From: Pontibacter arcticus
GTDB taxonomy: Bacteria; Bacteroidota; Bacteroidia; Cytophagales; Hymenobacteraceae
Direction: 5' to 3'
Assembly (NCBI RefSeq): GCF_003284895.1
Contig: NZ_QMDV01000003.1
Span: 126,501 to 190,500 of the forward strand
Length of the DNA: 64,000 bases
Shown: piece by piece, positions 1-22,844 of the stretch
Layout: each line of letters starts with the position of its first letter
Numbering within the stretch: position 1 is the first letter of the stretch
Made by a program: the position numbers and the translations under genes
Notes under the pieces: model-generated
What the model saw: only the letters and a program-made list of their open reading frames with translations
Database searches by the model: none
Told to the model about the DNA's origin: nothing

Positions 1-11
1 GCACCAATCTC

Positions 12-48
12 AACCACCAGTTACCGCTTCGCTCAAACTGGCGGTATG
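12..48. repeat. REP-like repeat upstream of the RAYT gene
   Basis: The stretch reads AACCACCAGTTACCGCTTCG and continues to GGCGGTATG. It differs at only a few positions from a copy at about 42812-42846 and, inverted, from 42568-42604. Its place 16 bases before the RAYT reading frame is typical, because RAYT enzymes lie beside the REP elements they mobilise. That the two belong together is inference. Confidence 0.7.
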
Positions 49-63
49 TTCGTATAGCATACC

Positions 64-613
64 ATGAGCCGAAACTATAAGATCAGCGACCAGAGTAAAC
101 TACATTTTATTTCGTTTGCCACTGTAAACTGGATAGATGTATTAACCAGACCGGCCTACAAAGATATTATAGTTGACAGCCTGAATTATTGCATTCAGAA
201 CAAAGGATTGGAAGTATACGGCTTGGTGCATCATGTCTAACCACATTCATCTGATCATCGGCTCTGAAACTGAAAACCAATCCGGCATTATCCGCGACCT
301 GAAAAAACATACTTCCAAAACAATAGTAAAGGCCATTGCCGATAACCCCCAGGAAAGCCGCAAAGAATGGATGCTCTGGATGTTTAAGCGTGCAGGAAAG
401 CGCAATATTAATAATAAGGATTTCCAGTTCTGGCAGCAGCACAACCAACCTATCGAGCTAAACTCAAATTTCCTGATAGAGCAGAAGCTTACTTATATTC
501 ATAACAACCCAGTAGAAGCTGGTATTATATGGGAGCCAAAGGATTATCCTTATAGTAGAGCAATAGATTATACAGGAGGAAAAGGAATGGTAGATGTTAT
601 ACTTCTAAGTTGA
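64..613 (+). pseudogene. REP-associated tyrosine transposase (RAYT, IS200-like), frameshifted
   Basis: Read from ATG at 64 the protein begins MSRNYKISDQSKLHFISFAT and runs to GLVHHV-stop at about 238. A second frame from 233 continues with MSNHIHLIIGSE. One extra base near 229 accounts for the break: without the C, the codons read GLV-I-MSNHIHLI, the usual family sequence. The repaired protein would be 182 residues, normal for this family. The HxH metal site (NHIHL) and the likely catalytic tyrosine in KLTYIHNNP are both in the downstream frame. These single-strand transposases (Y1, HUH fold) act on REP hairpins. With the frameshift the product is presumably inactive, unless programmed frameshifting occurs; I see no strong slippery run at the site. 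A sequencing error is also possible. Confidence 0.85.
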
Positions 614-671
614 TAAATGCCAGTTACAAACTGGCATCATGTAGAGGGCATGTAGAGGATTTTTCAGGTTA

Positions 672-696
672 GTACGAGCTACAAGTCTGCACCAGC
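672..696. repeat. dispersed repeat, single arm (GTACGAGCT family)
   Basis: GTACGAGCTACAAGTCTGCA followed by CCAGC matches 21 of 25 bases of the right arm of the inverted repeat at 34471-34500. It is the only one of the two sites without a partner arm nearby, so it may be a decayed element. Confidence 0.55.
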
Positions 697-713
697 AAAA
701 GGTATTTACAAGA

Positions 714-776
714 TTCAAAGTATAAACAAGAAGCGGCAGCCAAAGTATGGCTGCCGCTTCTTGTTTATACTTTGAA
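714..776. terminator. 28-bp perfect hairpin, bidirectional terminator
   Basis: The arms 714-741 and 749-776 are perfectly complementary over 28 bp and enclose the 7-base loop AAAGTAT. The hairpin lies between the broken transposase on the plus strand and the end of the M28 peptidase gene on the minus strand. It resembles the hairpin at 4249-4293 in stem core, flank and loop. Confidence 0.7.
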
Positions 777-897
777 ATTCAATATGATGCTCAAACAACT
801 AAATTACTGCAAGCCAGTCAAACAGCATTTATTGGTCAGTTAAACCAACAAGCTTTTGTAGCAAGCTATACTTTAAAAACAAAGTATAAAATATATG

Positions 898-2385
898 CTA
901 ACGCACGCCTACATTAGCGCCCTTATCAACGGCAGGGCGGGCAGGCGTATCGGAAACAGCCCAGCCAGTGGCGTACATCCATTGCGTCATCTTGGTCAGC
1001 TTTTCGATATCGATTTTCTCGGCTTCATCGCCTGGTGTATGGTAATCTGGGTGAAGAAGCGTGGTAAAGAAGAGTGCTGGAATACCGGCTTGTGCATACG
1101 GAAGGTGGTCGCTGCGGTAATACCAGCGCTCGGGGTGGCTGGCCTGGTCCCATTTGGTATCGAGCTTGAACTTGGTGAGTTGCTGGTTGGCATTAAGGGC
1201 CATATTTACCAGTTGCTCAGAGTTACGATGCGGCAGAATAGATCCCAATAAGGCAGCAGAATCCGGTGCGTTTCTGCCGATCATATCAGCATTTAAAACG
1301 GCTACAATAGACTCCTTTTTTACCGTAGGCTGCTGCACATAAAACCTGGACCCGTACAGGCCACGCTCTTCGGCACCATGCCACACAAACAAGGCGCTTC
1401 TTTTGCCGGGTTTCTGTACCCAGGCCCTGCCGATAGCCAGGAGCGCAACACTTACTGTCGCATTGTCGTCGGCCCCATTCCAGATAGAGTCGCCGGCTAC
1501 AGGTATGCCTACGCCATCGTGGTCGTGGTGGCTGCTGAACAGCACGTGTTCCTGTTTTAAAGTTTTATCCGTACCGGACGCTATGGCTATTACATTTACA
1601 GACGGGTACGTATAACTATCGGCCCTGAGGTGCGCTGCTATCTTCGCATTGGGTTGCTGTAAGTCGCTTGCCCAGGCTTGTCGAACAAGTATAACGGGTG
1701 CGGCATCCAGATTTGGCGCCGGAGCCGTACCTTCCAGTTGATAGATTCCTTCTTCCATAGCATGGCCAAAAAAGTTGGCATCAGCCTCGGTTTTAGAGTC
1801 GGTAACCAGAAAAATAGCTGCAACACCCTGCCGTTTTAAGATATCCGTCTGTTGCCTGAGCGCAGACAAAACATAACGGTATGTCCATAAACTCATGCCT
1901 TTGGCCGGAAGCTTTGCTGGGGGCAACAGGTGCATCGCTACTGTTTTGCCTTTTAAACTTGCCGTTGTATCGGCCATACTTTTCAGCCACATAACAGGTG
2001 CTTCCAGTTTGCTTTCTACTGGCGTTGTTAACCAGGCATTTTTCCATAATGTAGCAGGCTTCCCGTTTATACTGATTGTGCTGTTATCGGCTACGGTAGT
2101 GCGCCTTAGCGGGAAGAACTGGAAGTATGTTCCGTCGTCGCCGGCAGGTTGTAGCCCGGCTTTGCGGGCTTGTTCGGCAACCCAGGCTGCGGCACGTAGC
2201 TCGTCCTGCGTGCCTGCCCTTTTGCCACGCATATCATCACTTGCCAGCTCAAAAAGGTCGCGCTTCAGGTCTTCTTGCTTTATAGCATTTAGTGCAGGGG
2301 GCTTTCTAAAGGAGGAGGTTTTGTTTTGAGCATAAGCTGTGCAGCAGGCCGTCGCACACATCAGAAAAGTTAATAGAAGTCTCAT
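898..2385 (-). CDS. M28 family zinc aminopeptidase, secreted
   Basis: This 495-residue protein is a metallopeptidase of family M28, which removes N-terminal residues from peptides using two zinc ions. I chose the ATG at 2385 because it starts a signal peptide (MRLLLTFLMCATACCTAYAQ); the upstream GTG at 2424 would add 13 residues before it. The zinc ligand signatures are visible in order: SSHHDHDG, GADDNA, HGAEERG with the catalytic Glu, NADMIGR, and a late His in HPDYHTPGD. A PA-like insert lies between the signal peptide and the catalytic domain. It probably acts in the periplasm or outside the cell. It is divergent from the M20 peptidase gene across about 230 bases. Confidence 0.88.
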   Translation of the reverse strand: MRLLLTFLMCATACCTAYAQNKTSSFRKPPALNAIKQEDLKRDLFELASDDMRGKRAGTQDELRAAAWVAEQARKAGLQPAGDDGTYFQFFPLRRTTVADNSTISINGKPATLWKNAWLTTPVESKLEAPVMWLKSMADTTASLKGKTVAMHLLPPAKLPAKGMSLWTYRYVLSALRQQTDILKRQGVAAIFLVTDSKTEADANFFGHAMEEGIYQLEGTAPAPNLDAAPVILVRQAWASDLQQPNAKIAAHLRADSYTYPSVNVIAIASGTDKTLKQEHVLFSSHHDHDGVGIPVAGDSIWNGADDNATVSVALLAIGRAWVQKPGKRSALFVWHGAEERGLYGSRFYVQQPTVKKESIVAVLNADMIGRNAPDSAALLGSILPHRNSEQLVNMALNANQQLTKFKLDTKWDQASHPERWYYRSDHLPYAQAGIPALFFTTLLHPDYHTPGDEAEKIDIEKLTKMTQWMYATGWAVSDTPARPAVDKGANVGVR

Positions 2386-2618
2386 AAAAGTCTCTGGTAA
2401 ATCAGGATGGATAACATATAACACCTTACGGATACTGCTGAAAACCGGAAAATTGCAGTACTGTCGTGCCCGGCAACGCAGCGTTTGTAAAGCATTGATT
2501 TTTATATATTAACAAGTATAACAACAGCTTAAGCAATAAACTACAAAAACAATAAAATAGATAACTATATTAGCATAAGCTATTATAAATTAGATCTTAA
2601 TCTTAACGCTATTTCCTG

Positions 2619-4148
2619 ATGATGAAGAATATTTACAAGTTTTTTCCTGTACTGCTTTTCGCGGTTTCTGCAGGGGCTGCTGTGCAGGCACAGACCATAC
2701 AGCAGTATGTAAGCAAGAACGACAAAAAGCTGATGGAAGAATACATTCAGTTTCTGTCCATTCCCAATGTTTCTACGGATACTGTTAATATCAGGAAAAA
2801 CGCAGCTTTTATTCAGGAGATGATGGAGCGCAAAGGTATAAAAGCAGAACTGCTCAACGGAACCACGCCCGGCGTTACTCCGGCAGTATTCGGCGAAATA
2901 AAAACACCCGGTGCCACCAAAACCCTTGGCTTTTATGCGCACTACGACGGGCAGCCTGTAAACCCAAAACAATGGCACGAAGGGCTTGATCCGTTTAAGC
3001 CTGTTTTGCTTACAGGATCACTTGAGAACGGCGGAAAGATAATGGGCCCTTACAAAAACGGAGACGCCATTAACCCGGAGTGGCGCATCGCAGGCAGAGG
3101 CTCCGCAGATGACAAAGCGGGCGTGATGGCGATCATAAATGCATATGAGGCGCTGGTAAAAACCGGTAAAAAGCTTCAGGTAAATATCAAGTTCTTATTT
3201 GAAGGAGAGGAAGAAGTTGGCTCCATCCACTTAGACGAGATTTTCAAGAAGCACAAAGCCAAGCTACAGGCCGATTCCTGGATCGTTGTAGACGGACCGC
3301 GACATGTGTCCGGGAAAAAGACGATTGTATTTGGGGTGCGTGGCGACGTAAATATGGCATTAACCACATATGGCGCAAAACGGCCACTGCACAGTGGCAA
3401 CTACGGCAACTGGGCTCCAAACCCCGCCCTGAAAATGGTACAGCTGCTGGCTTCGATGAAAGATAATAAAGGCAACGTATTGATCAAAGGTTTTTATGAT
3501 GACGTAACACCACTTACATCTTCCGAAAAGAAAGCCATGGCACAGATACCAGATCAGGATGTCCTGCTTAAAAAGGAACTAGGCGTGCATACTCCTGAAA
3601 ATTCGGAAAGATCCTTAATGGAAGGGGTTATGATACCTACGCTTAACATAAATGGCATACAAAGTGCTAACGTAGGAGCGCTGGCAGGTAATATTATCCC
3701 TACAAAAGCAGAAGTCGCCCTGGACCTGCGCTTAGTAAAGGGTAACGATCATCGAAAGCAGGCTCAGAAAGTAATCGATCATATCAAAAGCGAAGGCTAC
3801 CATGTGGTTACCACTGAGCCAACGGAAGAGGAACGAAGCAAGTATGCCAACCTGATAAAGGTAGAAGTAAAGCATGGCTACAACGCACAGCGTACGCCCA
3901 TGGACCTGCCTATTTCCAGGAGTGTGCAGGCTGCTGTGCAATCCACTATAAAAGAACCGCTGGTACTTATTCCGACAATGGGGGGTAGCCTGCCTTTATA
4001 CTTGTTCGAGGAAATACTGGAAACCAAGGTTATCACCGTACCCATCGTAAATTACGACAATAACCAGCATGCTGAAAATGAGAACGTCAGAATCGGTTAC
4101 CTATGGGAAGGTATAGAAACCATTGCAGCGATTATGCAGATTAAGTAA
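2619..4148 (+). CDS. M20/M25/M40 family metallopeptidase, secreted
   Basis: This 509-residue protein belongs to the M20 dipeptidase/deacylase family. A signal peptide runs through AAVQAQ; the start may be either of two adjacent ATG codons (2619 or 2622). Metal-binding signatures appear in order: FYAHYDGQPV (His, Asp), RGSADDKAG (bridging Asp), EGEEEVGS (catalytic Glu-Glu) and a dimerisation lid domain in the middle. The C-terminal part keeps a His in NNQHAENENVR. The likely role is cleavage of dipeptides or acylated amino acids in the periplasm. A terminator hairpin follows at 4249-4293. Confidence 0.88.
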   Translation: MMKNIYKFFPVLLFAVSAGAAVQAQTIQQYVSKNDKKLMEEYIQFLSIPNVSTDTVNIRKNAAFIQEMMERKGIKAELLNGTTPGVTPAVFGEIKTPGATKTLGFYAHYDGQPVNPKQWHEGLDPFKPVLLTGSLENGGKIMGPYKNGDAINPEWRIAGRGSADDKAGVMAIINAYEALVKTGKKLQVNIKFLFEGEEEVGSIHLDEIFKKHKAKLQADSWIVVDGPRHVSGKKTIVFGVRGDVNMALTTYGAKRPLHSGNYGNWAPNPALKMVQLLASMKDNKGNVLIKGFYDDVTPLTSSEKKAMAQIPDQDVLLKKELGVHTPENSERSLMEGVMIPTLNINGIQSANVGALAGNIIPTKAEVALDLRLVKGNDHRKQAQKVIDHIKSEGYHVVTTEPTEEERSKYANLIKVEVKHGYNAQRTPMDLPISRSVQAAVQSTIKEPLVLIPTMGGSLPLYLFEEILETKVITVPIVNYDNNQHAENENVRIGYLWEGIETIAAIMQIK

Positions 4149-4248
4149 AATAAGTTTCTACCTATGATCTACCTTTTTACCTGCGTTTAAAGATGAAGTA
4201 TACCTGTTATTTCAGATACTAGACAAATATAAAATAGAAGTCAGATAA

Positions 4249-4293
4249 AAGTATAAAACAAAAGCGGCAACCAAAGTATGGTTGCCGCTTTTG
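4249..4293. terminator. bidirectional terminator between convergent genes
   Basis: CAAAAGCGGCAACC (4259-4272) pairs perfectly with 4280-4293 around the loop AAAGTAT. It sits between the convergent M20 and M16 genes. An AAGTATA copy lies just upstream of the stem. The whole unit is a near copy of the hairpin at 714-776. Confidence 0.75.
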
Positions 4294-4335
4294 CAAAAGT
4301 CTGGTGTCTAAAATCCAGCGTCTAACATTTGAATA

Positions 4336-7287
4336 TTAATACCCGAACAGCTCCGTCAGGTTTAGCTGCTTCACTTTGCCATACTTTTCGAGTTCTTTAA
4401 AGTTGAGTTTGTCTTTAGAACCGATCACAAGTATAACCTGTGGCTGGCCTTTCACATACTTATGCTGGAACTCCTTCAGTTGGTCGAACGTCATGGTGTT
4501 CGCGCTCTGGTATACATCTTTACGGATGTCGTAAGTCAGGCCTAAACGCTTGGCACGCTCGTAGTTAAACAGCACATCAGACCGTGTGATGCGTTCTGTT
4601 GAGATGCTGTTCTTTAAAGAGGCTACCGCGTTCTGGAAGTTCGCATCTGCCAGTGGCATATCCGTTAAAAGAGCCTGCATACCAGCCATCGCTTCAGCCA
4701 GTTTATCAGACTGCGCCCCGATGTAAGACTGCAGGTAATTGGCGCGGTCTTTTTTAGCAGCAGTAGCGTACGACGAGTAAGTAGAGTAAGCCAGTGCTTT
4801 AGACTCACGCAGATCCTGGAACACGATGCCGCCCATATACTCATTATACAAACGTACTACCGGCACAATATCCTTGTTATAAGCTACAGACTTGCTCAGG
4901 AACAGCATTTCGGCCTGCACCATGTTGTAATCTGCCCAGTAAACAGTTGGCTGTGCAAAGTCTACTTCTTTGTATACTTTCTCGGCTGGCACAGGCTTTA
5001 ATGTAGCCGGTACATTGTGGCCGGCGTTAAGTGTTGCTACCAGCTTATCTGTTTCGCGTGGGCCATAGTATAAAACGCGGTGCTCATAAGTTGGGATGCT
5101 TTTGATAATGCTTACCAGTTCCTGTGGCTTTACAGCCTTCAGTTGTTTTTCTGAAAGGTTTGTATTGAACGGATTCTTAGCGCCATACTTGGCATAGTTA
5201 ACCATTGCCTGCTGCAGGATAACGCCTTTATTCTTCTTGGCATCTTCGCGTGCTTTCAGCATCCCGGCTACCATGTCGTTCAGGGCTTGCTGGTTTGGCT
5301 TTGCGTTGGCAAGTATACTTTCGAACAGGTTGAGGCCTTGCTCAAAGTTCTCATCCAAACCGGTCAGGCTGATATGTATCTGATCGCCGGAAGAGAACAC
5401 ATCAAACGAAGTACCCAGCTTGTAAAACTCTTTCTGCAGTTCTTCGGCGGTATACTTGTCGGTGCCCAGGTACTTGAGGTAGTTTACCGCCATGCCCAGT
5501 TTCTGGTCGTTGTTGGTACCCATATCCAGGATGTAGTATAACTGGAACAGGCCGTTGTCTTTGTTCTTGGTATAGATAACCGGGATGTTCTGCTTCATCG
5601 TGGTCTCTACCAGGTCTTTGCTATAGTCTATGAAAACAGGCCGTAACGGCGCTGCTTCTTTGGCCATAAACTGCTTGTAGTATTCGGATTGTACATCGCG
5701 GTTAACCGCTACCGGTGTAATAGCAGGTTTCTCTACTTTTTGTGCGTTGGGGTCTTTGCCGGTTTTTTTGTAAACAAGCACATAGTTGTTACCGAAGTAT
5801 TTGTTGGCAACAGCCATTACATCCTGCTTGGTTATACTGGCAAACGCAGCCGGGCGGCTCACAAATTTCTGCCACGGCATGTCATAAATAAAAGCCGTTA
5901 CAAAAGCATCAGCGCGGTTGCTGTTATCTTCATACGCTTTCATGGTATTGATCTTGTCGTTGTTAACTACAGCCTGAATCAGAGACTCGTCGAAGTTACC
6001 TTTCTTGATCATGTCCAGTTGCCCCAGCAAGAGGTCGCGTACCTGGTCAAGCGTCTGACCCTGGCGTGGCATACCCGTCATCCGGAACATGCCGTAGTCT
6101 TTCATCGGGGTGTCGTACGCATAGGCCTGTAACACTTTCTGCTGCTGGTTCAGGTTCAGGTCAACCAAGCCAGCCTGGCCGTTATACAGCAGGTCAGAGA
6201 TCATTTCGATCACGATAGCATCCTTGTCGTTGATGGCAGGCGTACGGAAAGCGATGGAAATGTTCTCAGCGTCCGGGCCAAGTATTTCTTTCACGATCGG
6301 TTTTTGGATCGGCTGCTCCTGCGTCACATCAAATGCAGGCTCAGGCTTCTTTTCCATACTTCCCCAGTATTTATCAATTAAGCGGATGGTCTGGTCGAAA
6401 TCAATGTCGCCGCTCATGGCAATTGCCATGTTGTTGGGAACATAGTATTTGGTGTAATACTTTTTGATTTCGGTGATGGACGGATTTTTTAGGTGCTCTA
6501 TGGTGCCGATGGTGCTTTGCGAACCATACTGGTGTGTAGGGAAAAGGGCTGCGCTGATCGCCTCCTGTACTTTCCAGCCGTCATTATCCAGGGTACGGTT
6601 TTTTTCTTCATAAACAGCCTCGAGTTCTGTATGGAAAATACGTGGCACCATATCGGCAAAACGGTCCGCTTCCAGTTCTAACCAACGCTCTAGCTGGTTG
6701 CTCGGGATGTCGTTTACATACACGGTCTGGTCTACCCAAGTATACGCGTTTGTTCCTTTTGCCCCGATGGCACCTAAAATCTTATCATACTCGTTCGCGA
6801 CTGCGTACGTGGCCGCTACACCCGACACGGAGTCGATCTGCGCATAGATCTTTTTGCGGGCTGTTTCGTCTTTAGTCGCTCTGTACTTTTCGTAAAGGGC
6901 TTCGATCTTATCCAGCTCAACTTTTTCTTTTCCCCAGTTCTGCGTGCCCAGTTCCGATGTGCCCTTAAATACCATGTGCTCCAAGTAGTGGGCAAGTCCG
7001 GTTGCATCGGCAGGGTCGTTTTTGGCGCCTGCTCTTACAGCAATAAAGGTCTGCACGCGGGGCGCATCTTCATAGTCTGTCAGGTATACTTTCAGGCCAT
7101 TGCTCAAGGTATAAATGCGGGCATTCAGCGGGTCGTTTGGGGCAGTTTCGTAAGTATATTCTTTCTGAGTTGCTGTTACAGCCGCTCCATCAGTTGCGGA
7201 TTGCGTCTGGTAGGTTTCGTTTTTGCATTGTGTAAAGCTAAGACCCAGCGCAAGCAGCAACAAAGAAGTGCCTTTTTGTTTTGTCAT
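4336..7287 (-). CDS. M16 family (pitrilysin-like) zinc protease, lipoprotein
   Basis: The protein is 983 residues, the normal length for a two-lobed M16 protease. The N terminus is a lipoprotein signal with Cys21 (LSFTQC), so it is probably anchored to a membrane facing the periplasm. The inverted zinc motif HYLEH gives His100, Glu103 and His104, and a downstream Glu lies in TELEAVYEEKNR. The second half contains the usual inactive M16 domain with an R-x-Y-type region near the C terminus. Enzymes of this family degrade peptides up to a few kilodaltons. It is followed after 48 bases of spacer upstream by dnaX on the same strand, but they are unlikely to be functionally linked. Confidence 0.9.
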   Translation of the reverse strand: MTKQKGTSLLLLALGLSFTQCKNETYQTQSATDGAAVTATQKEYTYETAPNDPLNARIYTLSNGLKVYLTDYEDAPRVQTFIAVRAGAKNDPADATGLAHYLEHMVFKGTSELGTQNWGKEKVELDKIEALYEKYRATKDETARKKIYAQIDSVSGVAATYAVANEYDKILGAIGAKGTNAYTWVDQTVYVNDIPSNQLERWLELEADRFADMVPRIFHTELEAVYEEKNRTLDNDGWKVQEAISAALFPTHQYGSQSTIGTIEHLKNPSITEIKKYYTKYYVPNNMAIAMSGDIDFDQTIRLIDKYWGSMEKKPEPAFDVTQEQPIQKPIVKEILGPDAENISIAFRTPAINDKDAIVIEMISDLLYNGQAGLVDLNLNQQQKVLQAYAYDTPMKDYGMFRMTGMPRQGQTLDQVRDLLLGQLDMIKKGNFDESLIQAVVNNDKINTMKAYEDNSNRADAFVTAFIYDMPWQKFVSRPAAFASITKQDVMAVANKYFGNNYVLVYKKTGKDPNAQKVEKPAITPVAVNRDVQSEYYKQFMAKEAAPLRPVFIDYSKDLVETTMKQNIPVIYTKNKDNGLFQLYYILDMGTNNDQKLGMAVNYLKYLGTDKYTAEELQKEFYKLGTSFDVFSSGDQIHISLTGLDENFEQGLNLFESILANAKPNQQALNDMVAGMLKAREDAKKNKGVILQQAMVNYAKYGAKNPFNTNLSEKQLKAVKPQELVSIIKSIPTYEHRVLYYGPRETDKLVATLNAGHNVPATLKPVPAEKVYKEVDFAQPTVYWADYNMVQAEMLFLSKSVAYNKDIVPVVRLYNEYMGGIVFQDLRESKALAYSTYSSYATAAKKDRANYLQSYIGAQSDKLAEAMAGMQALLTDMPLADANFQNAVASLKNSISTERITRSDVLFNYERAKRLGLTYDIRKDVYQSANTMTFDQLKEFQHKYVKGQPQVILVIGSKDKLNFKELEKYGKVKQLNLTELFGY

Positions 7288-7335
7288 AAGGTTGAGATTG
7301 GTATATAAGACTATAAATATAGACTTTTTTCTGAT

Positions 7336-9207
7336 TTAGAAATCAGTATCAAGGCCCAAACGTTGTTTTAAGTCAACCAACACCGGAAATTTATCAGCCA
7401 GGTAGTTAAATTTATCCTGCGAGGTATACAGTTTGTTTTCGTCCTGCAATTCAATTACCTCCGCCTTCAGTTTTATACTTTTGTTGCCGAGTTCTTTTCT
7501 TAATTCTGAAAGCAGGATAGGGCGCAGCGTTGTAAACTGGGCCAGCATCACGTGGTTTTCGAGGTGCAGGGTCAGTTCGTTATCATCGCTGATGTGGTAG
7601 TTGCGGTTCAGGAGCGTGTACTCCATCATATTTTCGGCCTTCTTGCGGCGCAGGATCGCATGCCAGATCGTTTTAAGACGCGCTTCATCTACAGGCACGA
7701 AAGCGCCGTAATTATCGGTTTCCTCTTCCACCACTGTGGCGGTTTCTGGGGCTGCGGCAGCTTCCGACTGAATAGTTTTCAGGCTCGGCAGTTTGCTCAG
7801 CTTTTTCTGGGGCGGGAGCGCCGGGCGGTTCTTATCCGGAGTGGCAGCTGTTAGCACCGGAGGCTGTGGCTGTACGGGCGCAATGTGCGCATCCGGCGTT
7901 ACCTGTTGCGGTTTAGGCGGTTGTTGCAAGCCTTCGGAAGGCACATTGCCCTGTTGCTGCGGCTGCTGCAAAACCGCCGACGGCACTGTGCCTGCAACAG
8001 CTTGCTGCAGGGCTGACGATTGTACGTTGGCACCTGTGGATGGGGTAGAGGCGGGTGCCGGCGCTGCTACCTTAGCTTTTTTTGATTCAGCTCCTTCAAC
8101 TGCAAAACTTAAAGCGGCGTTCAGGTGTGCCATTTTCATGAGGCAGAGCTCTACGTGCAGGCGTTGGTTTTTGCTGCTCTTGTAATGCATATCGCAGGTA
8201 CTTACCAAGTTCAGGCCCGAAAGCAGAAACGACACCGAAGCATTGGCAGCCTGCTCGCCATACTTTACTTTAATGTTATCCGATACCTCGAGCAACTGGA
8301 TGGTAGCTGCATCTTTGCAAACCAGCAAACTCCGGAAGTGTTCGCCAATACCAGCCAGGAAATTGTGTGCATCAAAGCCGTTTTTCAGGATCTCATCAAA
8401 CAGCAATAAAACACCCGCCAGGTTTTGGGCCAACAGATAATCAGTCAGACGGAAATAGTAATCATAATCCAGTATGTGCAGGTTCTCTACGGTTGCTTTG
8501 TAAGTTACATTGCTCCCCGAAAACGTGACCATCTGGTCGAAGATAGAAAGGGCGTCGCGCAAGGCACCGTCAGCCTTCTGCGAGATCAGGTGCAGCGCAT
8601 CGGGCTCGGCCTGTATACTTTCTTTCTGGGCTATACTTCCCAAATGGCGCACCATATCCTCTACTCTGATGCGGTTAAAATCAAAGATCTGGCAGCGCGA
8701 AAGTATGGTTGGGATGATCTTATGACGCTCGGTGGTGGCAAGTATAAAAATGGCGTAGGCAGGCGGTTCTTCCAGCGTTTTCAGGAAAGCGTTAAAAGCC
8801 TGGTTTGAGAGCATGTGCACCTCATCTATAATATAGATTTTATACTTACCGGATTGCGGCGCATAACGCACCTGCTCTACCAAATTCCGGATATCTTCTA
8901 CGGAGTTGTTGGAAGCTGCATCGAGCTCGTGGATGTTAAAAGAACTGCTGGAGTTAAAGCTGCGGCACGATTCGCACTCGTTACAGGCTTCCGTTTCCGG
9001 GGTGATATTTTCGCAGTTAATGGTTTTGGCCAGGATACGGGCACAGGTTGTCTTGCCAACGCCACGCGGCCCGCAGAACAGGAATGCCTGTGCCAGGTGG
9101 TTGCTGCTGATGGCATTCTTCAGGGTATTGGTTATATGGTGCTGGCCCACCACGCTATCGAACGTGGCCGGCCGGTATTTACGCGCTGATACTACAAAAT
9201 TTTCCAT
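7336..9207 (-). CDS. dnaX: DNA polymerase III subunit gamma/tau
   Basis: The 623-residue product is the clamp-loader ATPase of the replicative polymerase. I chose the ATG at 9207 (MENFVVSARKYRP), the conserved family start; an upstream frame of 30 codons is not conserved in character. Walker A is GPRGVGKTT (residues 46-54). The zinc module uses Cys65, Cys75, Cys78 and Cys81, and Walker B is DEVHML. An SRC sensor motif follows. A Pro/Gln/Ala-rich linker at about residues 385-510 separates the ATPase from a C-terminal tau-like domain. A TATATTTG promoter box almost touches the start codon. Confidence 0.95.
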   Translation of the reverse strand: MENFVVSARKYRPATFDSVVGQHHITNTLKNAISSNHLAQAFLFCGPRGVGKTTCARILAKTINCENITPETEACNECESCRSFNSSSSFNIHELDAASNNSVEDIRNLVEQVRYAPQSGKYKIYIIDEVHMLSNQAFNAFLKTLEEPPAYAIFILATTERHKIIPTILSRCQIFDFNRIRVEDMVRHLGSIAQKESIQAEPDALHLISQKADGALRDALSIFDQMVTFSGSNVTYKATVENLHILDYDYYFRLTDYLLAQNLAGVLLLFDEILKNGFDAHNFLAGIGEHFRSLLVCKDAATIQLLEVSDNIKVKYGEQAANASVSFLLSGLNLVSTCDMHYKSSKNQRLHVELCLMKMAHLNAALSFAVEGAESKKAKVAAPAPASTPSTGANVQSSALQQAVAGTVPSAVLQQPQQQGNVPSEGLQQPPKPQQVTPDAHIAPVQPQPPVLTAATPDKNRPALPPQKKLSKLPSLKTIQSEAAAAPETATVVEEETDNYGAFVPVDEARLKTIWHAILRRKKAENMMEYTLLNRNYHISDDNELTLHLENHVMLAQFTTLRPILLSELRKELGNKSIKLKAEVIELQDENKLYTSQDKFNYLADKFPVLVDLKQRLGLDTDF

Positions 9208-9212
9208 TACTA

Positions 9213-9220
9213 CAAATATA
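9213..9220 (-). promoter_or_regulatory. -7 promoter box of dnaX (TATATTTG)
   Basis: The minus strand reads TATATTTG, a perfect match to the Bacteroidota -7 consensus TAnnTTTG. Its last base is five bases from the dnaX ATG. A transcript starting at the usual distance would begin at or within a few bases of the start codon, giving a leaderless message. No TTTG box at -33 is evident. Confidence 0.5.
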
Positions 9221-9568
9221 ATCAATCTGAAGCGGAGTTGGGAATGCAAAACCAACACTTTCTTCTGCCTGCTCTGGATAAACCCGACTGGCAGCATTTA
9301 ACCCCAATAACGCAGCTTAAAGAAAGTAATTGAGGTATGGGTGATAAGTAACGTGGAATATTAAGAAAGGCTTCTGACCCTTGAGTTATACTTCAGAACG
9401 AATGATCTGCTAAATTAATTGGGCTTGTATATAATACTTAGTATATAAAATTATACTTTATTAATGGGTAAAAGTGAGTAAAACTGATAAAGTAAAGATG
9501 TTATTAGAATTGTTATATCATTATAAATCTTATATTGACATAATGTTAAACTAAACTAAGTCATAACG
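9221..9568. other. intergenic region without a recognisable gene
   Basis: This AT-rich stretch separates the divergent dnaX and M36 genes and must hold the M36 promoter. I could not place a full -33/-7 pair for it. Several copies of the AAGTATA/TATACTT motif occur, including a run of imperfect copies around 9430-9465. Confidence 0.6.
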
Positions 9569-12500
9569 ATGAGAAAAGCTTTACACGGTACTGTACAACT
9601 GATGTTGTTAGTTGTATTGCTTTTAGGAAGCAATGTAGTATTTGGCCAGCGGCTGAATACTCCCGGCGAGCGGCCGATTCCTAAAAGTGCTTTAGAGCAT
9701 ATTAAAAAGAACAGGCAAAAGCTTGATCTGACTGAAGCTGACATTGCCGAAATGCGTGTAAGCAGCGAAAGCCAGACCAAACACAATGGTTTACGCCATG
9801 TGTACCTGCAGCAGCTACATGAGGGCATCGAAATTTACGGTGCGGTCTCGAATGTAAACCTCACCAAAGACGAAAAAGTATTATCGATGGGGAACCGTTT
9901 CAGAAAGGATCTGAGGCAAAAAGCTAAAACCACACAACCCGGCTTAAACGCAGAAGCTGCTGTAGCGGCGGCGGCCAAGCACCTGGGTATCTCCCTCAGG
10001 CAGCCATTAGTTGTTAAAGAAAGATCAAATGCCAAAAATAAAGAAGTATTGTTCTCTACAGGCGGTATTTCTTTAGAGCCCATCCCTGCCAAACTGGTAT
10101 ACCAGCCACAGGAAGATGGTAGCCTGAAACTGGCCTGGGAAGTATCTATTTACGAGCTTGATGCGCAAAACTGGTGGAACATTCGCCTGGATGCTGTAAC
10201 CGGTAAAGTGCTGGATAAAGACAATATGGTTGTTCATTGCCAGTTCGATAACGACGGCCCTGCCGGCACGCCACTTCACCGTGAGCACAGCCATACCGTA
10301 GAAGCACCGGCTTTTATACCTTCTGTAGCGGCCTTGGCTCCAACAGCAAATGCTTACAATGTGTATGCCATGCCAGTTGAAAGCCCGAGCCACGGCCCAC
10401 GCAGCTTTGTCAGTACTTCCTCCATCAACACAAAAGCATCGCCTTACGGCTGGCACTCTACCTTGGTATCCCCGGCAATCGAGTATACCATTACACGCGG
10501 TAACAACGTGCACGCTTACGAAGACCCTTCTAATAACAACAATATCACGGGGTTAAATTACAGCACAGACGGAGGCCAGGATCTTTTGTTTGATTTTCCG
10601 GTAGATTTCACAAAGCAGCCGGTTGAGTACCGCGATGCAGCGATCACCAACCTGTTTTATGTAAGTAACGTGATGCACGATGTGTGGTACCAGTACGGAT
10701 TCGATGAACTGAGCGGTAACTTCCAGACAAACAACTACGATAAAGGGGGTTTAGGCGGTGACTATGTACAGGCTGAAGCCCAGGATAGCAGAAACATCGC
10801 TACAACCCGTAACAATGCTAACTTCTCTACTCCAAGAGACGGCCTCAGACCAAGAATGCAGATGTACCTGTGGTCTGGCAAAGCACCTGTTGATATCTTA
10901 AAAGTAACCGCGCCATCTGGCATCGCTGGCAACTACAAAGCAATTGAAGGATCATTCAGCAAGCCGCTTACCACAACTCCGGTAGTTGGTAAACTGGTAC
11001 TGGCACAGGTAGAAACAGGCAGCAACGACGAAGCTTGTACTGCTTATACGAACGGAGCTGCCATGAGCGGTAACATTGCTGTTGTATACAGAGGGGCATG
11101 CGACTTTGCTGTTAAAACCCTGAATGCACAAAATGCAGGCGCTATTGCCATTGTGGTCATCAACAATGCAGACGGCGACCCGATCATTATGGGGGGTACG
11201 CCAACCAGCCCGGTAACCATACCAGCAGTGATGATCAGCAAAACAGATGGCCTGAAGATCAGACAGCAACTTGATGCTTCGCAGGAAGTAACTGTATCGC
11301 TTCAGAACAACGGTTCAGGCCCTGAGGTGGATGGCGACTTTGATAATGGCATCATTGCACATGAGTATGGCCACGGTATTTCTATCCGCTTAACAGGTGG
11401 GCCTAACCTTGTGAACTGCTTAGGCAACGCAGAGCAGGCCGGCGAAGGCTGGAGCGACTGGTTCGGTCTGATGATCACGATGAAGCCAGGTGATAAACCA
11501 GCTGATAAAAGAGGAGTAGGTACTTATGCGCAGAACCAGCCAACTGATGGCAACGGTATCCGCCCGGCACCATACAGCACAGATTTCGCTATCAACGGGT
11601 ATACTTACGGCGCTACTAATAACACTGCTTTATCGCAACCACACGGTATCGGTTTTGTGTGGGCTACTATGATCTGGGATCTGAACTGGGCTATGATTGA
11701 AAAGTATGGTTACGATGCTGACCTGTACAATGGTAAGGGTGGTAACAACATGGCCATGCAGCTGATCATCGACGGCCTGAAACTGCAGCCTTGCGGCCCG
11801 GGCTTTGTGGATGCACGTAACGCCATACTTGCCGCTGACCTGCAGAACTATGGTGGTGCTAACCAGCAACTGATCTGGTCTGTTTTTGCCCGAAGAGGGT
11901 TAGGTTTCAGTGCCAGCCAGGGATTAGCTACCAGCAGAACGGACCAGGTAGAAGCATTTGATATGCCTCCTGCAGACCCAAGCTGCCAGACGCCGGTTAT
12001 CAGCTTTGCGCTGAACGGAACGCCGGTAGAAGGAACGCCTGAAAACACCATCTACTTAGGGAAAGGCCCTCAGACCGCTACCCTTACAGCCACAGGCAGC
12101 GACAGCTATGTATGGACTCCGGCAACAGGCCTGAGCGATGCAAAAAGCGCAACTCCGGTGTTTACAGCAACTGCTGTTGGTACGTATACTTATACAGTAA
12201 CCGGCAGAACAGGCAACTGCGTGAAAGATGCAACGATTACGATTAAGGTAGTAGAAGCACCGATCGTTTGCGACGTTCCACAGATTACTGTAAAAACTAA
12301 TGGTACACCAATAGCCAGTGCGCCAGCTAATACCATCTATATAGGGTATGGCCCGCAGAGCGTAACGCTGTCTGCAAAAGCAGGCGATAGCAATAGCTTT
12401 GCATGGAGCCCAGCCACAGACCTGAAAGGTGCTAACACAGCCAATGCAGTATTTACGCCAAAAGCTGCCGGCACATACACGTTCACGGTAACTGCATCTA

Positions 12501-12943
12501 AAACAGGTTGCTCCAGCACTGCATCCGTTACGATTAATGTACTTGATGTGCGTTGCGGTAATAAAGTGGCTATGTGCTTCAGAGGGAAAGACCTTTGCGT
12601 AAATGCTAACACCGTTGCCAGGTCTCTGGAGCGTGGTTATACTTTAGGCAGCTGCTCTGATGCAACCCCTGTTGCCAGCGAGCCTACTTTCAAAGTATAC
12701 CCTAACCCGGTTAGCTCTTCTGCCAACATCGACTTTACCCTGGAAGAAGATGGTGCTTACGCTATCAAGCTTGTAAACCAGGTAACCGGCGAAATAATGA
12801 CCGTTGCAACCGGCAAAGGGAAAGCTGGTGATAAAGTAACACATCAGTTTAACAGAGGCAGATTAAGCAACGGTACTTATACTGTTATGATCGAATCTGC
12901 AAGTGATGTGAGAAGATTCCCGATCCTGTTGAGCGATAAATAA
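9569..12943 (+). CDS. M36 family (fungalysin) metalloprotease, secreted by type IX system
   Basis: This is a 1124-residue extracellular zinc protease. In order it has a signal peptide ending at VVFGQ, an FTP propeptide (about residues 30-230), the M36 catalytic domain with a PA domain inserted (CDFAVKTLNAQNAGAIAIVV near 510-530), and the zinc motif HEYGH at 598-602 followed by a Glu in EGWSDWFG. Two related Ig/PKD-like repeats of about 90 residues follow (each beginning with NGTP and containing AT-L); the second ends in a Cys-rich link. The C terminus (YPNPVSSSANIDF...) is a type A T9SS sorting domain, so the protein should cross the outer membrane and be attached or released. A terminator follows. 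Confidence 0.93.
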   Translation: MRKALHGTVQLMLLVVLLLGSNVVFGQRLNTPGERPIPKSALEHIKKNRQKLDLTEADIAEMRVSSESQTKHNGLRHVYLQQLHEGIEIYGAVSNVNLTKDEKVLSMGNRFRKDLRQKAKTTQPGLNAEAAVAAAAKHLGISLRQPLVVKERSNAKNKEVLFSTGGISLEPIPAKLVYQPQEDGSLKLAWEVSIYELDAQNWWNIRLDAVTGKVLDKDNMVVHCQFDNDGPAGTPLHREHSHTVEAPAFIPSVAALAPTANAYNVYAMPVESPSHGPRSFVSTSSINTKASPYGWHSTLVSPAIEYTITRGNNVHAYEDPSNNNNITGLNYSTDGGQDLLFDFPVDFTKQPVEYRDAAITNLFYVSNVMHDVWYQYGFDELSGNFQTNNYDKGGLGGDYVQAEAQDSRNIATTRNNANFSTPRDGLRPRMQMYLWSGKAPVDILKVTAPSGIAGNYKAIEGSFSKPLTTTPVVGKLVLAQVETGSNDEACTAYTNGAAMSGNIAVVYRGACDFAVKTLNAQNAGAIAIVVINNADGDPIIMGGTPTSPVTIPAVMISKTDGLKIRQQLDASQEVTVSLQNNGSGPEVDGDFDNGIIAHEYGHGISIRLTGGPNLVNCLGNAEQAGEGWSDWFGLMITMKPGDKPADKRGVGTYAQNQPTDGNGIRPAPYSTDFAINGYTYGATNNTALSQPHGIGFVWATMIWDLNWAMIEKYGYDADLYNGKGGNNMAMQLIIDGLKLQPCGPGFVDARNAILAADLQNYGGANQQLIWSVFARRGLGFSASQGLATSRTDQVEAFDMPPADPSCQTPVISFALNGTPVEGTPENTIYLGKGPQTATLTATGSDSYVWTPATGLSDAKSATPVFTATAVGTYTYTVTGRTGNCVKDATITIKVVEAPIVCDVPQITVKTNGTPIASAPANTIYIGYGPQSVTLSAKAGDSNSFAWSPATDLKGANTANAVFTPKAAGTYTFTVTASKTGCSSTASVTINVLDVRCGNKVAMCFRGKDLCVNANTVARSLERGYTLGSCSDATPVASEPTFKVYPNPVSSSANIDFTLEEDGAYAIKLVNQVTGEIMTVATGKGKAGDKVTHQFNRGRLSNGTYTVMIESASDVRRFPILLSDK

Positions 12944-12969
12944 CAAGTTTAGGTAAGTATCTGATTTTT

Positions 12970-13003
12970 AAGAGCCGGCAGGTAGTTGCCGGCTCTTTTT
13001 TTA
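12970..13003 (+). terminator. intrinsic terminator of the M36 gene
   Basis: A GAGCCGGCA stem pairs with TGCCGGCTC and is followed by a run of Ts, 27 bases after the stop codon. Confidence 0.85.
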
Positions 13004-13131
13004 TTTGCCGCTCAGCCAGCCGCTAATTTATACTTGGTGACCAGCAGTTTTTAAAGTATAAAATGAAACCAAACAACCCCGCAAATTCGTTTAAACTACA
13101 GAATCCACAGCAGTGTATAGTAAATTTAGTG

Positions 13132-13139
13132 TACCTTTG
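13132..13139 (+). promoter_or_regulatory. -7 promoter box of tmRNA (TACCTTTG)
   Basis: TACCTTTG matches TAnnTTTG. Initiation a few bases downstream would give a precursor with a leader of about 40 bases before the mature tmRNA 5' end. A clear -33 TTTG is lacking. Confidence 0.45.
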
Positions 13140-13185
13140 CAGTATACTTTGTGGAAGTATAAACAGAGAAGTTCTTTTACTTATT

Positions 13186-13555
13186 GGGGTAGACCGGAAT
13201 TGACAGCTTGTGCAGATTGCGTGTAAGCATGTCGGGTGATGAACGTACCACCTGTTAAAAATCCGTTCGAACAATAACTGGCGAATACAACTACGCCATG
13301 GCTGCTTAATCTAGGTATTAAGCAATTGCCATAGTCTCGTGCAGGTTTCGTGAATCTGCTTGCACATCAGAGGCTTCGACTCGATTGACTAGTTTGTGCA
13401 AAGGTGTGGTGCACAGGCGAAACAAAGCATCTAAGGAGGGCGCATAAGTTTGACTTATACTTGCAAACTCCCTACAATCCGAATAAGTCTAAGCATGTAG
13501 AAAGCCCGTAAATTTCCTTGTCTGGACCAGGGTTCGAATCCCTGCTACTCCACTA
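13186..13555 (+). ncRNA. ssrA: transfer-messenger RNA (tmRNA)
   Basis: The 5' end GGGGTAG pairs with CTACTCC near the 3' end (13545-13551) to form the acceptor stem. The T arm GGTTCGAATCC is complete just before it, and the start GGGGTAGACCGGAATTGACA is a tmRNA hallmark. The tag frame at 13280-13309 encodes GEYNYAMAA and ends in TAA. The terminal CCA is not encoded (CTA follows the discriminator A). The RNA rescues stalled ribosomes and marks the unfinished protein for degradation. A terminator follows at 13568. Confidence 0.95.
13280..13309 (+). other. tmRNA tag-peptide reading frame
   Basis: GGC-GAA-TAC-AAC-TAC-GCC-ATG-GCT-GCT-TAA gives GEYNYAMAA. The first codon is inferred as the resume codon from comparison with Bacteroidota tags of the form GExNYALAA. 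Met replaces the more usual Leu before the final AA. Confidence 0.8.
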
Positions 13556-13567
13556 ATCCATAACATA

Positions 13568-13602
13568 AAGCCTTGTAAGCGAATAGCCGGCAAGGCTTTT
13601 TT
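13568..13602 (+). terminator. tmRNA terminator
   Basis: AAGCCTTG pairs with CAAGGCTT around an internal loop and is followed by a T run, 13 bases after the tmRNA end. Confidence 0.75.
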
Positions 13603-13620
13603 GTTTTATAAAGTTGCTGA

Positions 13621-14190
13621 TTACAGGCTGTTAAGAAAAATAATGATTTCTTCGGTAGTAAGGACCTGTTGCACTTTGCCCGTACTGATAGCAGCTTGTG
13701 GCATGGTGCTGATCTCGGCGGTTGCAGGATCTTGTGCAATAGTATGGCCACCGTGCCGGGCTATGGCCTCGATACCTTTACTGCCATCGCTGTTTGCTCC
13801 GGTGAGTATGATGCCAACTAAAGTCTCGCCGTACTGCTCGGCTGCGGCCTCGAACGTTACATCGATACTTGGCCTGCTGTACTGCACTTTCTCGGAAGCT
13901 TCCAGGCTAAATGTATGATCCTTTTCAAGGAGGAGATGATAATCTGCAGGAGCGAGGTAAACAGTGCCCGGCTGGATAATTTCTTTTTCGGTGGCTTCTT
14001 TTAAATACAAAGGTGTTTTAGTGCTAAGCACATCCGTAATAAAGCCTTCTTTCGAACTGGCCGGCCTGTGTATAACAAGTACAACCGGGATTGTAAAGCC
14101 ATCGCGTAAGGCAGGAATAATCTTGAAAATGACCTCTATGCTTCCAGCAGAGCCGCCAATCAGGATCAGGTTATACTTGGGCTGCTGCAT
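13621..14190 (-). CDS. stand-alone CheB-type methylesterase domain protein
   Basis: The 189-residue protein consists of only the catalytic domain of the chemotaxis methylesterase CheB. The triad can be placed: Ser14 in IGGSAGS, His41 in VIHRP and Asp135 in GANSDG. The receiver domain normally fused at the N terminus is absent, so phosphorylation would not control it directly. CheB removes methyl groups from glutamates of chemoreceptors or deamidates glutamines. There is no CheR, receptor or CheA gene nearby, so the substrate is unknown. It converges on tmRNA. Confidence 0.85.
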   Translation of the reverse strand: MQQPKYNLILIGGSAGSIEVIFKIIPALRDGFTIPVVLVIHRPASSKEGFITDVLSTKTPLYLKEATEKEIIQPGTVYLAPADYHLLLEKDHTFSLEASEKVQYSRPSIDVTFEAAAEQYGETLVGIILTGANSDGSKGIEAIARHGGHTIAQDPATAEISTMPQAAISTGKVQQVLTTEEIIIFLNSL

Positions 14191-14870
14191 GGGATAACTT
14201 ATTTTGCCGGGTTTAAAACATACTTGTTATGGCAGCTTTAACTGCTTTTTTTAACAGAATGTTATGCCCAACGGTAACTGTTTTATTTCTAAAAAGGACT
14301 CCTGTTAACTTTTAAATAAAAAGTGTTTGATGCCGCTTTCTTGCCGGTAGCTATACAATAGTTAACATATGAACCATTGAGCATAAATATGCTTGCAATG
14401 CCTTTTAAAAGGAGATTCCAGCCTGATTTATGTAAGGCTATCACATCGGCTTTTGGGGATATTATCTACAAAGTGTGTATTTATGGTGCATGGTACACAG
14501 TTTTGTCTACAGGTTGTTATTTTAGGTTTATTATATAATAAGTTGGTATATAGCATATTAGCAAGTATAAGTTTTCTGGCACAATTTTGACATATTAGTT
14601 TATACAGCAACAGAAAAAACAGACGGTTTAGAAGTTGATGTGTAATTGCTGAACATGAAGCAAAAGCAGGAGATTGGTTAAAGGTTTAGTAAAAACTTTA
14701 TACGATAGTCGGTTACCAAACCTGCTCAAAAAATATAAATCCGGAAACGGAAATTGAACGCTCCAAGATGATTTACAACATTTAGGCAGTAGTAAGCTAC
14801 AAAAGCCTGCTTTCTGATTAAATGAATCTGGGATAAATTTTTTAAATAGTTATTAACAATTGGGCAAAGT
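14191..14870. other. 680-base region with no convincing protein gene
   Basis: I see no reading frame with family resemblance, and the few frames above 60 codons start with rare codons and have unlikely compositions. The stretch ends in a strong plus-strand terminator (14871-14903) that belongs to no visible gene, so an untranslated RNA may be made here. No tRNA, SRP RNA or riboswitch signature was recognised. Confidence 0.5.
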
Positions 14871-14903
14871 AAAGGCCTTCGTTCTGCGAAGGCCTTTTTT
14901 TAT
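14871..14903 (+). terminator. orphan intrinsic terminator
   Basis: AAAGGCCTTCG pairs perfectly with CGAAGGCCTTT around TTCTG and is followed by Ts. The nearest plus-strand gene upstream is tmRNA, which has its own terminator. Confidence 0.75.
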
Positions 14904-14939
14904 GGGCAACCTTTTGAAGTATATGTCATGCTTTTCAGA

Positions 14940-14981
14940 AACAAAAAGGCCTGCTGTTAGCTAACAGCAGGCCTTTTTGTT
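14940..14981. terminator. 42-base perfect palindrome, terminator of the esterase gene
   Basis: The segment reads AACAAAAAGGCCTGCTGTTA and continues as its own exact reverse complement, with no unpaired loop. It lies 16 bases past the end of the minus-strand esterase gene and has A and T runs on both sides, so it can terminate in both directions. Confidence 0.75.
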
Positions 14982-14996
14982 ATGATGTTGGTTAAC

Positions 14997-15815
14997 TTAT
15001 CTGATATCCCGGATGGCCATGTACAGATCAAAGCCGGCTTGTAATTGTCCTTCGGTATCAGCGTTGATAGGATCCTGGGGAATACGCGTGTAGTTTCTCG
15101 TATCGATGAGGGCAACCGTTCGCGGGTCTGAGCTGGCGCGTTCTTCTTTAGCCTGATTTACGAATTGTGCATACGGCCCCACCTCCGAAAATATCTTATA
15201 CACTACGCGCCGTGTCTTGCTTAGGTAAGGTACTTCATCCAACGAAGCGAAAAAAGCGCGTTCGTTTTCGAGGTATGCAAATGCCCGCTCTTCTGTTAAA
15301 GCGTCATTTTCTCCCTGCCACCACGTTACTGTCAGGAATTTTGGTTTCATGCCCTGCGACATGATAGCGGTGCGGGCATTTTCTATCGTTCGTTTTGCTT
15401 CAGTGATCAGCTCTCCTGATTTTGGGTTCCAGTCAGCTACTTCTTTCGAGCCCGAATTATATAGCTGGGAGTTTTCTGCGCCAGCTACTATAAAGTATAT
15501 ATCTCTGTTTCTATGGCGCTGCATCAGGTAAGCCATCCGGATAAGCGGGCCAAACTCGTCGCGCCCGGATTGGGTATTTACACCAGCCTGTATGTTTTCA
15601 AACTTCCCGGTGGCTTTGTTATAAATGTGTGCGCCTTTCAGGGGTTCATTCAATTCGGCTGGCAACGCGTACGTATCAGCTTTACCAAGCGCATTGGATT
15701 GGCCAAGTATGATATGGACCTCAACAGTTTTTTCGGGGTAAGTTCTTTCTTTGCAGGCAGTAAGCAAAAGTGCTGGCAGCAATGCGGTTAGCAACAGGTA
15801 AAATATTCTGTTCAT
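14997..15815 (-). CDS. sialate O-acetylesterase-like lipoprotein (SGNH/SASA domain)
   Basis: This is a 272-residue lipoprotein (signal ending LLLTAC). The SASA-type esterase blocks are visible: HIILGQSNALG with the nucleophile Ser, and TWWQGENDAL near residue 165-175. Enzymes of this group remove acetyl groups from sialic acids or other glycans; the true substrate cannot be read from sequence. The C-terminal His/Asp block is less clear to me. A palindromic terminator follows. Confidence 0.8.
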   Translation of the reverse strand: MNRIFYLLLTALLPALLLTACKERTYPEKTVEVHIILGQSNALGKADTYALPAELNEPLKGAHIYNKATGKFENIQAGVNTQSGRDEFGPLIRMAYLMQRHRNRDIYFIVAGAENSQLYNSGSKEVADWNPKSGELITEAKRTIENARTAIMSQGMKPKFLTVTWWQGENDALTEERAFAYLENERAFFASLDEVPYLSKTRRVVYKIFSEVGPYAQFVNQAKEERASSDPRTVALIDTRNYTRIPQDPINADTEGQLQAGFDLYMAIRDIR

Positions 15816-16130
15816 GGATTTCAGGATTGTTGAATAACAAGGGCTAAAGATTTAGTCATCCTTTATAGCCAAACTGATATATACTAAATCGTACTATACA
15901 ACGTAATCCGAAAGTTAGTGTTGCCTGCAAAAGGCAGGTCCTTGTTAAAGTATAAATCGGGTATTTGCAGCTCAACCGGATAATAAAAAGCTAGGCCAAA
16001 CTCTTAAATTCTGAGAGTAAATGCTAAAAAATAAAAAAATAAATAATTTTTTTAGAAAGTAAGTAACCTTTTAAAACATGCTACGTAAATGCAGCCGACC
16101 CTTTAGTATTGCCCGTTAGGGCATGTGAGA
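15816..16130. other. intergenic region, possible small RNA
   Basis: This stretch has no convincing reading frame. From about 16070 the sequence is more GC-rich and contains short hairpins (for example GCCC-GTTA-GGGC near 16111-16122) directly before a terminator. It could be a small RNA or an attenuated leader, since the next gene starts almost 200 bases later. Confidence 0.35.
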
Positions 16131-16165
16131 AGGCCTTGGCAGTGAACGGCTGAGGTCTTTTTTCT
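16131..16165 (+). terminator. orphan terminator-like hairpin
   Basis: AGGCCTTGGC pairs with GCTGAGGTCT (10 pairs, three of them G-T) and is followed by a T run. No gene lies upstream on this strand. Confidence 0.55.
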
Positions 16166-16362
16166 TTTATCCTCCTTCCTATTACTCGCCTTATATCTTT
16201 TAGATATTACTTTGTATTCTTGTAATACCGCGTAAAACTTACTGCTATAAATTGTTGTATATAAACCATCGAATTAAAATTTGAATTATTCAGGTTTAAA
16301 AATTTGTTAAACTTATAAGTATTAGTATATTTAAATAATTAATATGCTAATATTTATAATGT

Positions 16363-16575
16363 ATGAAATCACTTCGACAGCTTATAGTAGCTATATTGGT
16401 AGTGGCTGGCATTGGCCTTTCTGCTTGCTCCACTATGGGCAGCATGGTTGGTAATAATGGCAAAATCAACATGGGCTACGGCGGTTATAAGAAAAACCCG
16501 TATGCGCAGCACAAAAAGCCTAAGAAACCCTACTATATCAGGCAGCAAAGTATGTGGGCAAAAGCACTCAGATAA
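16363..16575 (+). CDS. small lipoprotein of unknown function
   Basis: The 70-residue product has a clear lipoprotein signal (IGLSAC, Cys22). The mature part is only about 48 residues and is rich in Gly, Tyr and Lys (MGYGGYKKNPYAQHKKPKKP), so it is probably unstructured and basic. I do not recognise a family. It starts 41 bases before the DUF4112 gene ends its spacer, and the two may be cotranscribed. Confidence 0.65.
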   Translation: MKSLRQLIVAILVVAGIGLSACSTMGSMVGNNGKINMGYGGYKKNPYAQHKKPKKPYYIRQQSMWAKALR

Positions 16576-16616
16576 GCAAGTATACCTTAAACAGGTTCGC
16601 GTGCGTATAAGCGCTT

Positions 16617-18773: not shown

Positions 18774-18787
18774 GGAATAAGGTTAGT

Positions 18788-22840: not shown

Positions 22841-22844
22841 TTCT

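Follow-up and report, generated by a model that had tools for sequence, protein, structure and literature searches.

A short word with clade dialects, repeated thousands of times in Pontibacter genomes and gathered at gene ends and terminators, probably functions like a DNA uptake sequence

In the Neisseriaceae, the dialects of the DNA uptake sequence (DUS) follow phylogeny, share a common core and form pairs at terminators (Frye et al. 2013, PMC3630211), and the uptake words of the Pasteurellaceae (USS) are biased to gene termini (PMC2346458). Uptake words occur in up to 37% of the terminators of some Neisseriaceae and 22% of those of some Pasteurellaceae, and a search of thousands of genomes recovered them in these two families only (PMC13020248); an earlier survey of 343 prokaryotes reported the same association with terminators (PMC1852404). 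Among the Bacteroidota, Riemerella depends for transformation on ComEC, DprA, ComF and RecA, together with an HHH protein and several proteins that have no assigned function (PMC8459023), and R. columbina prefers its own DNA, with a list of candidate words that holds A/T-rich k-mers only (PMC7965970). Our literature search found no report of natural transformation of Pontibacter and no earlier report of an uptake word in Pontibacter, its relatives or the Bacteroidota; subscription papers and preprints lay outside the search, and novelty is unproven.

The window analysed here is a stretch of 64,000 nucleotides from the genome of Pontibacter arcticus, and its features are collected in Table 1. 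AAAGTAT, described as enriched in the first-pass annotation, occurs 127 times in the window compared with 12.1 times in shuffled sequences. Genome-wide, AAGTATAAA is present in 3,679 copies (1,794 and 1,885 by strand) and the reversed control in 42, and relative to a second-order expectation the word is over-represented 24-fold in coding and 37-fold in intergenic DNA. Its core is AAGTAT(A/G) and its best form AAAGTATAAAT. Single changes at the six bases of AAGTAT lower the enrichment ratio from 34 to 0.7–3.0, and changes at the last A lower it to 8 to 15. Pasteurellaceae USS are likewise frequent, occur on either strand and within genes as well as terminators, and show a gene-terminus bias (PMC2346458, PMC1852404), but their word is AAGTGCGGT, and the Pontibacter word shows little signal past about position +10, where flanking tracts like those of the Haemophilus USS were looked for.

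Table 1. Positions in the window of the hairpins, the copies of the word associated with them and the neighbouring genes.
Feature	Position	Strand	Remarks
Long perfect hairpin, candidate bidirectional terminator	714..776	.	29-bp arms, centre AAAGTAT, word three times
AAAGTAT in left-arm base	717..723	+	
AAAGTAT in loop of 714-776	742..748	+	
AAAGTAT, inverted, in right-arm base	767..773	-	
Hairpin, 15-bp arms, centre AAAGTAT	4259..4293	.	M20/M16 convergent gap
AAAGTATAAA immediately outside stem base of 4259-4293	4248..4257	+	
AAAGTAT in loop of 4259-4293	4273..4279	+	
Hairpin, centre AAAGTAT	49239..49275	.	past stop of minus-strand gene 49294-49851
AAAGTAT in loop of 49239-49275	49254..49260	+	
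AAAGTAT adjoining stem base of 49239-49275	49276..49282	+	
M28 peptidase gene, upstream of hairpin 714-776	898..2424	-	PF04389
M20 peptidase gene, upstream of hairpin 4259-4293	2619..4148	+	PF01546
M16 peptidase gene, convergent with M20 across 4259-4293	4336..7287	-	PF05193, PF00675
Genome-wide word AAGTAT(A/G)AA, along entire window	1..64000	.	176 AAGTATA on both strands, 8.7 expected, spread over full length

Most copies lie within genes: in 1.2 Mb of the genome, AAGTATA was counted 1,841 times in coding and 985 times in intergenic DNA. All six coding phases are used, and an effect of codons or amino acids was rejected on this ground. The strand bias is slight, about 54:46 in 1.2 Mb of contig C1, and tracks the GC skew. 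There is a clear preference for gene ends. AAGTATA reaches 11.1 copies per kb in convergent gaps, 7.2 in tandem and 5.1 in divergent ones, and about 17.7 per kb within the first 20 bp past stop codons; within genes, it is higher over the initial 90 bp and the final 30 bp than elsewhere. Copies are scarcest in a ribosomal-protein/SecY operon, in a cytochrome-oxidase operon, in a low-GC island that encodes a SIR2-domain protein along with a D12 adenine methylase, and around a Bacteroidota-type integrase. Low-GC stretches hold fewer copies even though the word is AT-rich, and the low density in the two operons shows that foreign origin is not the only cause of scarcity, constraint being another. 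A search by way of integrases found no Pontibacter plasmid. Contig C1 also holds 88 adjacent pairs of AAGTATA and its reverse complement starting at most 10 bp apart, many of them presumably the overlapping palindrome AAGTATACTT.

The first-pass annotation had drawn attention to three hairpins with AAAGTAT at the centre, and all three exist. The longest, 714-776, has perfect arms around AAGTA, or, when the closing A-T pair is taken as loop, the perfect 28-bp stem around AAAGTAT that had been reported. Its minimum free energy of folding is about -51 kcal/mol (z about -12), it carries one pair of AAAGTAT copies at the stem base and a third copy in the loop, and it stands 122 bp past the end of the M28 peptidase reading frame. 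The arms of 4259-4293 are perfect as well, and this hairpin, in the gap where the M20 and M16 peptidase genes converge, is terminator-like on the minus strand; 49239-49275 has one mismatch in the stem and lies directly past the stop codon of its gene. As had been claimed, 714-776 and 4259-4293 bracket the divergent M28(-)/M20(+) pair, one at the outward 3' end of each gene. All three had been called terminators. A G+C-rich stem-loop with a good T tract at a gene 3' end is found at 4259-4293 and 49239-49275; the resemblance is weak at 714-776, where the T-rich stretch is paired within the 3' arm, a clean T run after the stem is absent and a terminator consensus scan of the window gave no match. 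The three hairpins are ordinary terminators at gene ends that carry the genome-wide word, 714-776 being a predicted one with a weak T tract and a candidate for bidirectional function. The idea that 714-776 and 4259-4293 are copies of one unit finds weak backing in their 88% identity across 43 nt and in a compensatory stem difference (GCAGCC/GGCTGC in the former, GCAACC/GGTTGC in the latter). Only two further, weaker partial matches to the shared unit occur elsewhere in the 3.77-Mb genome, and the likeness is therefore a two-copy resemblance and not a repeat family.

Two other elements were recognized in the window. Positions 64-613 (+) hold the remnant of a REP-associated tyrosine transposase (NF047646 REP_Tyr_transpos, 52 bits, below the cut-off). 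The remnant's reading frame is interrupted near 233, and about 100 bp separate its 3' end from hairpin 714-776. An Rfam search of the window returned nothing but the tmRNA gene at 13186-13555 (+), with the tag GEYNYAMAA.

The relationship between the word and terminators was assessed in 288 hairpins of terminator type (intergenic, with a T tract), collected in stretches amounting to 2.06 Mb of the genome. Copies were scored by how far they lie from the centre of the hairpin, since an AAAGTAT loop is reduced to AAGTA when its outer A and T pair. In agreement with what the first-pass annotation had anticipated, AAAGTAT is the commonest central heptamer, found in 12 of the 288 hairpins where the frequency of the word in intergenic DNA predicts 4.3, an excess of about 2.8-fold. 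The excess is modest because the local density at gene ends itself exceeds the intergenic average. The density of AAGTAT/ATACTT at the hairpin centre is 15.6 per kb compared with 8.5 per kb across all intergenic DNA; inside the stem, 5–15 bp from the centre, it is nearly absent (0.7–2.4 per kb), and it peaks at 23–29 per kb immediately outside the stem, 20–35 bp from the centre. Using the rates in random intergenic windows (0.207 for the flanks and 0.088 for the centre) as the expectation, the word is found on at least one flank in 168 of 261 hairpins (about 97 expected), on both flanks in 41 (about 11 expected) and at the centre in 39 (about 23 expected). Copies within the arms were seen in 5 of the 23 hairpins with a stem score of 20 or more and in 1 of the 265 shorter ones. 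In dialect C (see below), none of 16 terminators, a small sample, was associated with that dialect's own word.

The loop is thus one permissive place among several. Copies crowd more closely next to the stem bases, where they often form an inverted pair, and terminators are of secondary importance as carriers of the word. A loop-specific element was considered and rejected, given the modest loop excess and the richer flanks. The earlier proposal that the loop here takes the place of the paired motif of Neisseria does not describe the main pattern, in view of the hairpins with both flanks occupied, and 714-776 itself combines a pair at the stem base with a copy in the loop. We attribute the presence of the word in terminators to the permissiveness of gene ends, where the stem is constrained while the loop and flanks are free; the position beside the stem can be ascribed to the AAA/TTT end of the word, which suits the tract there.

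Variation of the word among relatives was surveyed by whole-genome counts over 50 Pontibacter genomes, alternative words having been spotted from 20 kb in each of 40. The assignment to the genus is supported by six of the genomes, which have loci with 100% identity to Pontibacter records (P. silvestris, P. diazotrophicus, P. pamirensis, P. harenae, Pontibacter sp. E15-1 and Pontibacter sp. 172403-2). Three largely exclusive words were found, AAGTATAAA (dialect A), AACTATAG (B) and AGGTATAG (C), with the common core A..TATA. The first exceeds 1,200 copies in 22 of the 50 genomes (maximum 4,337), the second 6,200 copies in 5 (maximum 8,208) and the third 2,800 copies in 12 (maximum 5,222), and 11 genomes are without any of the three. 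Three of the 22 genomes rich in AAGTATAAA (G045, G061 and G063) are also rich in AACTATAG, and one dialect B genome (G047) retains 1,062 copies of AAGTATAAA. The dialects follow phylogeny: their states require 6 changes on the ComEC tree, whereas shuffled states need 18.6 on average and never fewer than 14. The words are also retained between species. At aligned sites with 70–80% identity, conservation of the word compared with permuted words is 0.45/0.29 for A, 0.61/0.30 for B and 0.60/0.24 for C, an excess that is expected under any force maintaining the word. Sites of dialect A align to AGGTATA in species of dialect C in 83 of 1,363 cases; for permuted words the equivalent change was seen in 148 of 6,564.

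Enriched words of other kinds were seen in samples of about 20 kb from related genera, namely the clade-specific GGGGTAG and GGCCTAG in some Hymenobacter species and CCTAGGT in Solirubrum (L089, L096, L131, L132, L090, L091 and L100), and these are perhaps further dialects in the family. Two Pontibacter genomes without the three dialects yielded weaker candidates from 20 kb, AGGTAGA/TAGAGAG in G056 (L230) and TATATAG in G057 (L228). About 39 copies of AGGTATAG at G020:C1:1944098-1946633 are spaced 64–69 bp apart and look like a CRISPR or other regular array.

At the level of the genome sequence, the similarity to the Neisseriaceae DUS (PMC3630211) extends to thousands of short non-palindromic copies, clade variants with shared positions along the phylogeny, genomes with two dialects and inverted pairs at terminators. 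Pontibacter differs in belonging to another phylum, in the word itself and in that no type IV pilus ATPase was found; moreover, the DUS mostly forms the stem of terminators, whereas within terminators the Pontibacter word gathers beside stems and in loops. Overall, the first-pass comparison with uptake sequences is supported by the dialects, the conservation and the gene-end bias.

ComEC and DprA are encoded in all 50 Pontibacter genomes, and among the matches listed a ComEA-like HHH-repeat protein of 310–330 residues is present throughout them; in the source genome its gene lies at C1:338604-339548. Pontibacter in this respect resembles Riemerella, another member of the Bacteroidota with ComEC, DprA and an HHH protein, which are essential there (PMC8459023, PMC7965970). 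A PilB/PilT-type ATPase (PF00437) was not found in the 50 genomes, which gave only short P-loop matches near the cut-off. Two genomes, G009 and G022, each have broken frames of both comEC and dprA. In G022 an HHH gene is seemingly broken too while other genes met there are intact; a frame change also affects comEC of G018. Assembly errors are possible, but the joint decay of comEC and dprA hints at a pathway in regular use, with a possible loss of competence in G009 and G022. No neighbour of comEC is specific to word-rich genomes overall. The 11 genomes lacking all three words carry the competence genes too, which counts against reading the word as an uptake sequence. DUF5689, a domain of one Riemerella gene, was considered as a candidate for an uptake gene and rejected, as it occurs in 22 of the 50 genomes in mixed architectures and does not track word content in Pontibacter.

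These results lead us to propose that the word probably functions like a DNA uptake sequence with clade dialects. In naturally competent Pontibacter, DNA carrying the word would be favoured in uptake (or recombination), and through repeated uptake of word-bearing fragments copies would accumulate where selection tolerates them, that is, at gene ends, in the flanks and loops of terminators and in permissive codons. The hairpins would then be ordinary, partly bidirectional intrinsic terminators in which the word has gathered in the loop and beside the stem. Lineages may have drifted to AAGTATAAA, AACTATAG and AGGTATAG, presumably as the receptor changed, and the divergence of dialects would restrict exchange between clades. 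Enrichment by uptake accounts for the number of copies, their occurrence both within and between genes, their retention between species, the bias to gene ends, the scarcity in a presumably acquired island and the dialects. Against it stand the missing pilus ATPase, the competence genes of genomes lacking the words, the lack of association in the small sample of dialect C terminators and the low density in the ribosomal-protein and cytochrome-oxidase operons. As no PilB/PilT-type ATPase was found, a receptor within a type IV pilus driven by such a motor is unlikely, and for the same reason we do not claim strict membership of the DUS/USS class.

The main rival explanation invokes methylation or binding by a chromosome protein, in the manner of the cyanobacterial HIP1: copies would be maintained through recognition by an orphan DNA methyltransferase or an abundant nucleoid or repair protein, and the dialects would track that protein. 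HIP1 (PMC4390886) is likewise a very frequent short word, with extreme genome-wide over-representation that differs between species, a debated function and a link to orphan methyltransferases, and our dialect and conservation data would fit any recognizing protein. However, HIP1 is described there as palindromic, which AAGTATAAA, AACTATAG and AGGTATAG are not, and the pairing at terminators and the gene-end bias match uptake sequences; we hold this explanation to be unlikely. Less probable still is that the word arises through a bias of mutation or repair, or through biased gene conversion, with neither selective nor uptake function. Such a process would act on both strands and in every gene, but mutation alone would hardly yield a core so strictly defined at six positions, where single-base variants stay close to background, the sites are retained between species, and the density drops in low-GC islands in spite of the AT-rich word.

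The remaining alternatives are very improbable. The high frequency of the word and its slight strand bias along the GC skew might point to a polar motif comparable to Chi or KOPS, with a part in directing recombination or the segregation of chromosomes. Motifs of this type are strongly polar, a property not matched by the bias observed here, and the concentration of the word at gene ends and terminators also argues against such a role, which we consider highly doubtful. Even less credit can be given to two further notions. One is that the loop itself functions in termination or RNA binding and terminators are the selected unit; AAAGTAT is indeed the top central heptamer, but few terminators are centred on it, their flanks are richer than their centres, and intragenic copies predominate. 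The other, just as improbable, takes 714-776 for a REP-type palindrome of the adjoining transposase remnant. The similarity of that reading frame to a REP-associated transposase and the length and perfection of the hairpin agree with such an origin; against it stand the lack of a dispersed family (one near copy, 4259-4293, and the two partial matches), the peptidase genes on both sides of 4259-4293 and the presence of the word in the arms of other long stems of the genome.

The preferred explanation, enrichment through DNA uptake, has consequences beyond the locus. Uptake sequences with dialects have so far been documented in two proteobacterial families. We see about an even chance that Pontibacter, and perhaps other Hymenobacteraceae, possess a system of self-DNA recognition with clade dialects that originated independently of those of the Neisseriaceae and Pasteurellaceae and uses a receptor that operates without a type IV pilus motor. 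If this is true, self-recognition by DNA words would have evolved more than once and with different machinery, in the present case in Bacteroidota lacking a pilus motor. The origin and turnover of dialects would be testable in Pontibacter, a genus that includes genomes with two dialects. The word would also offer a route to the DNA receptor of the Bacteroidota, and adding the right word to DNA may provide a practical handle for the transformation of Pontibacter.
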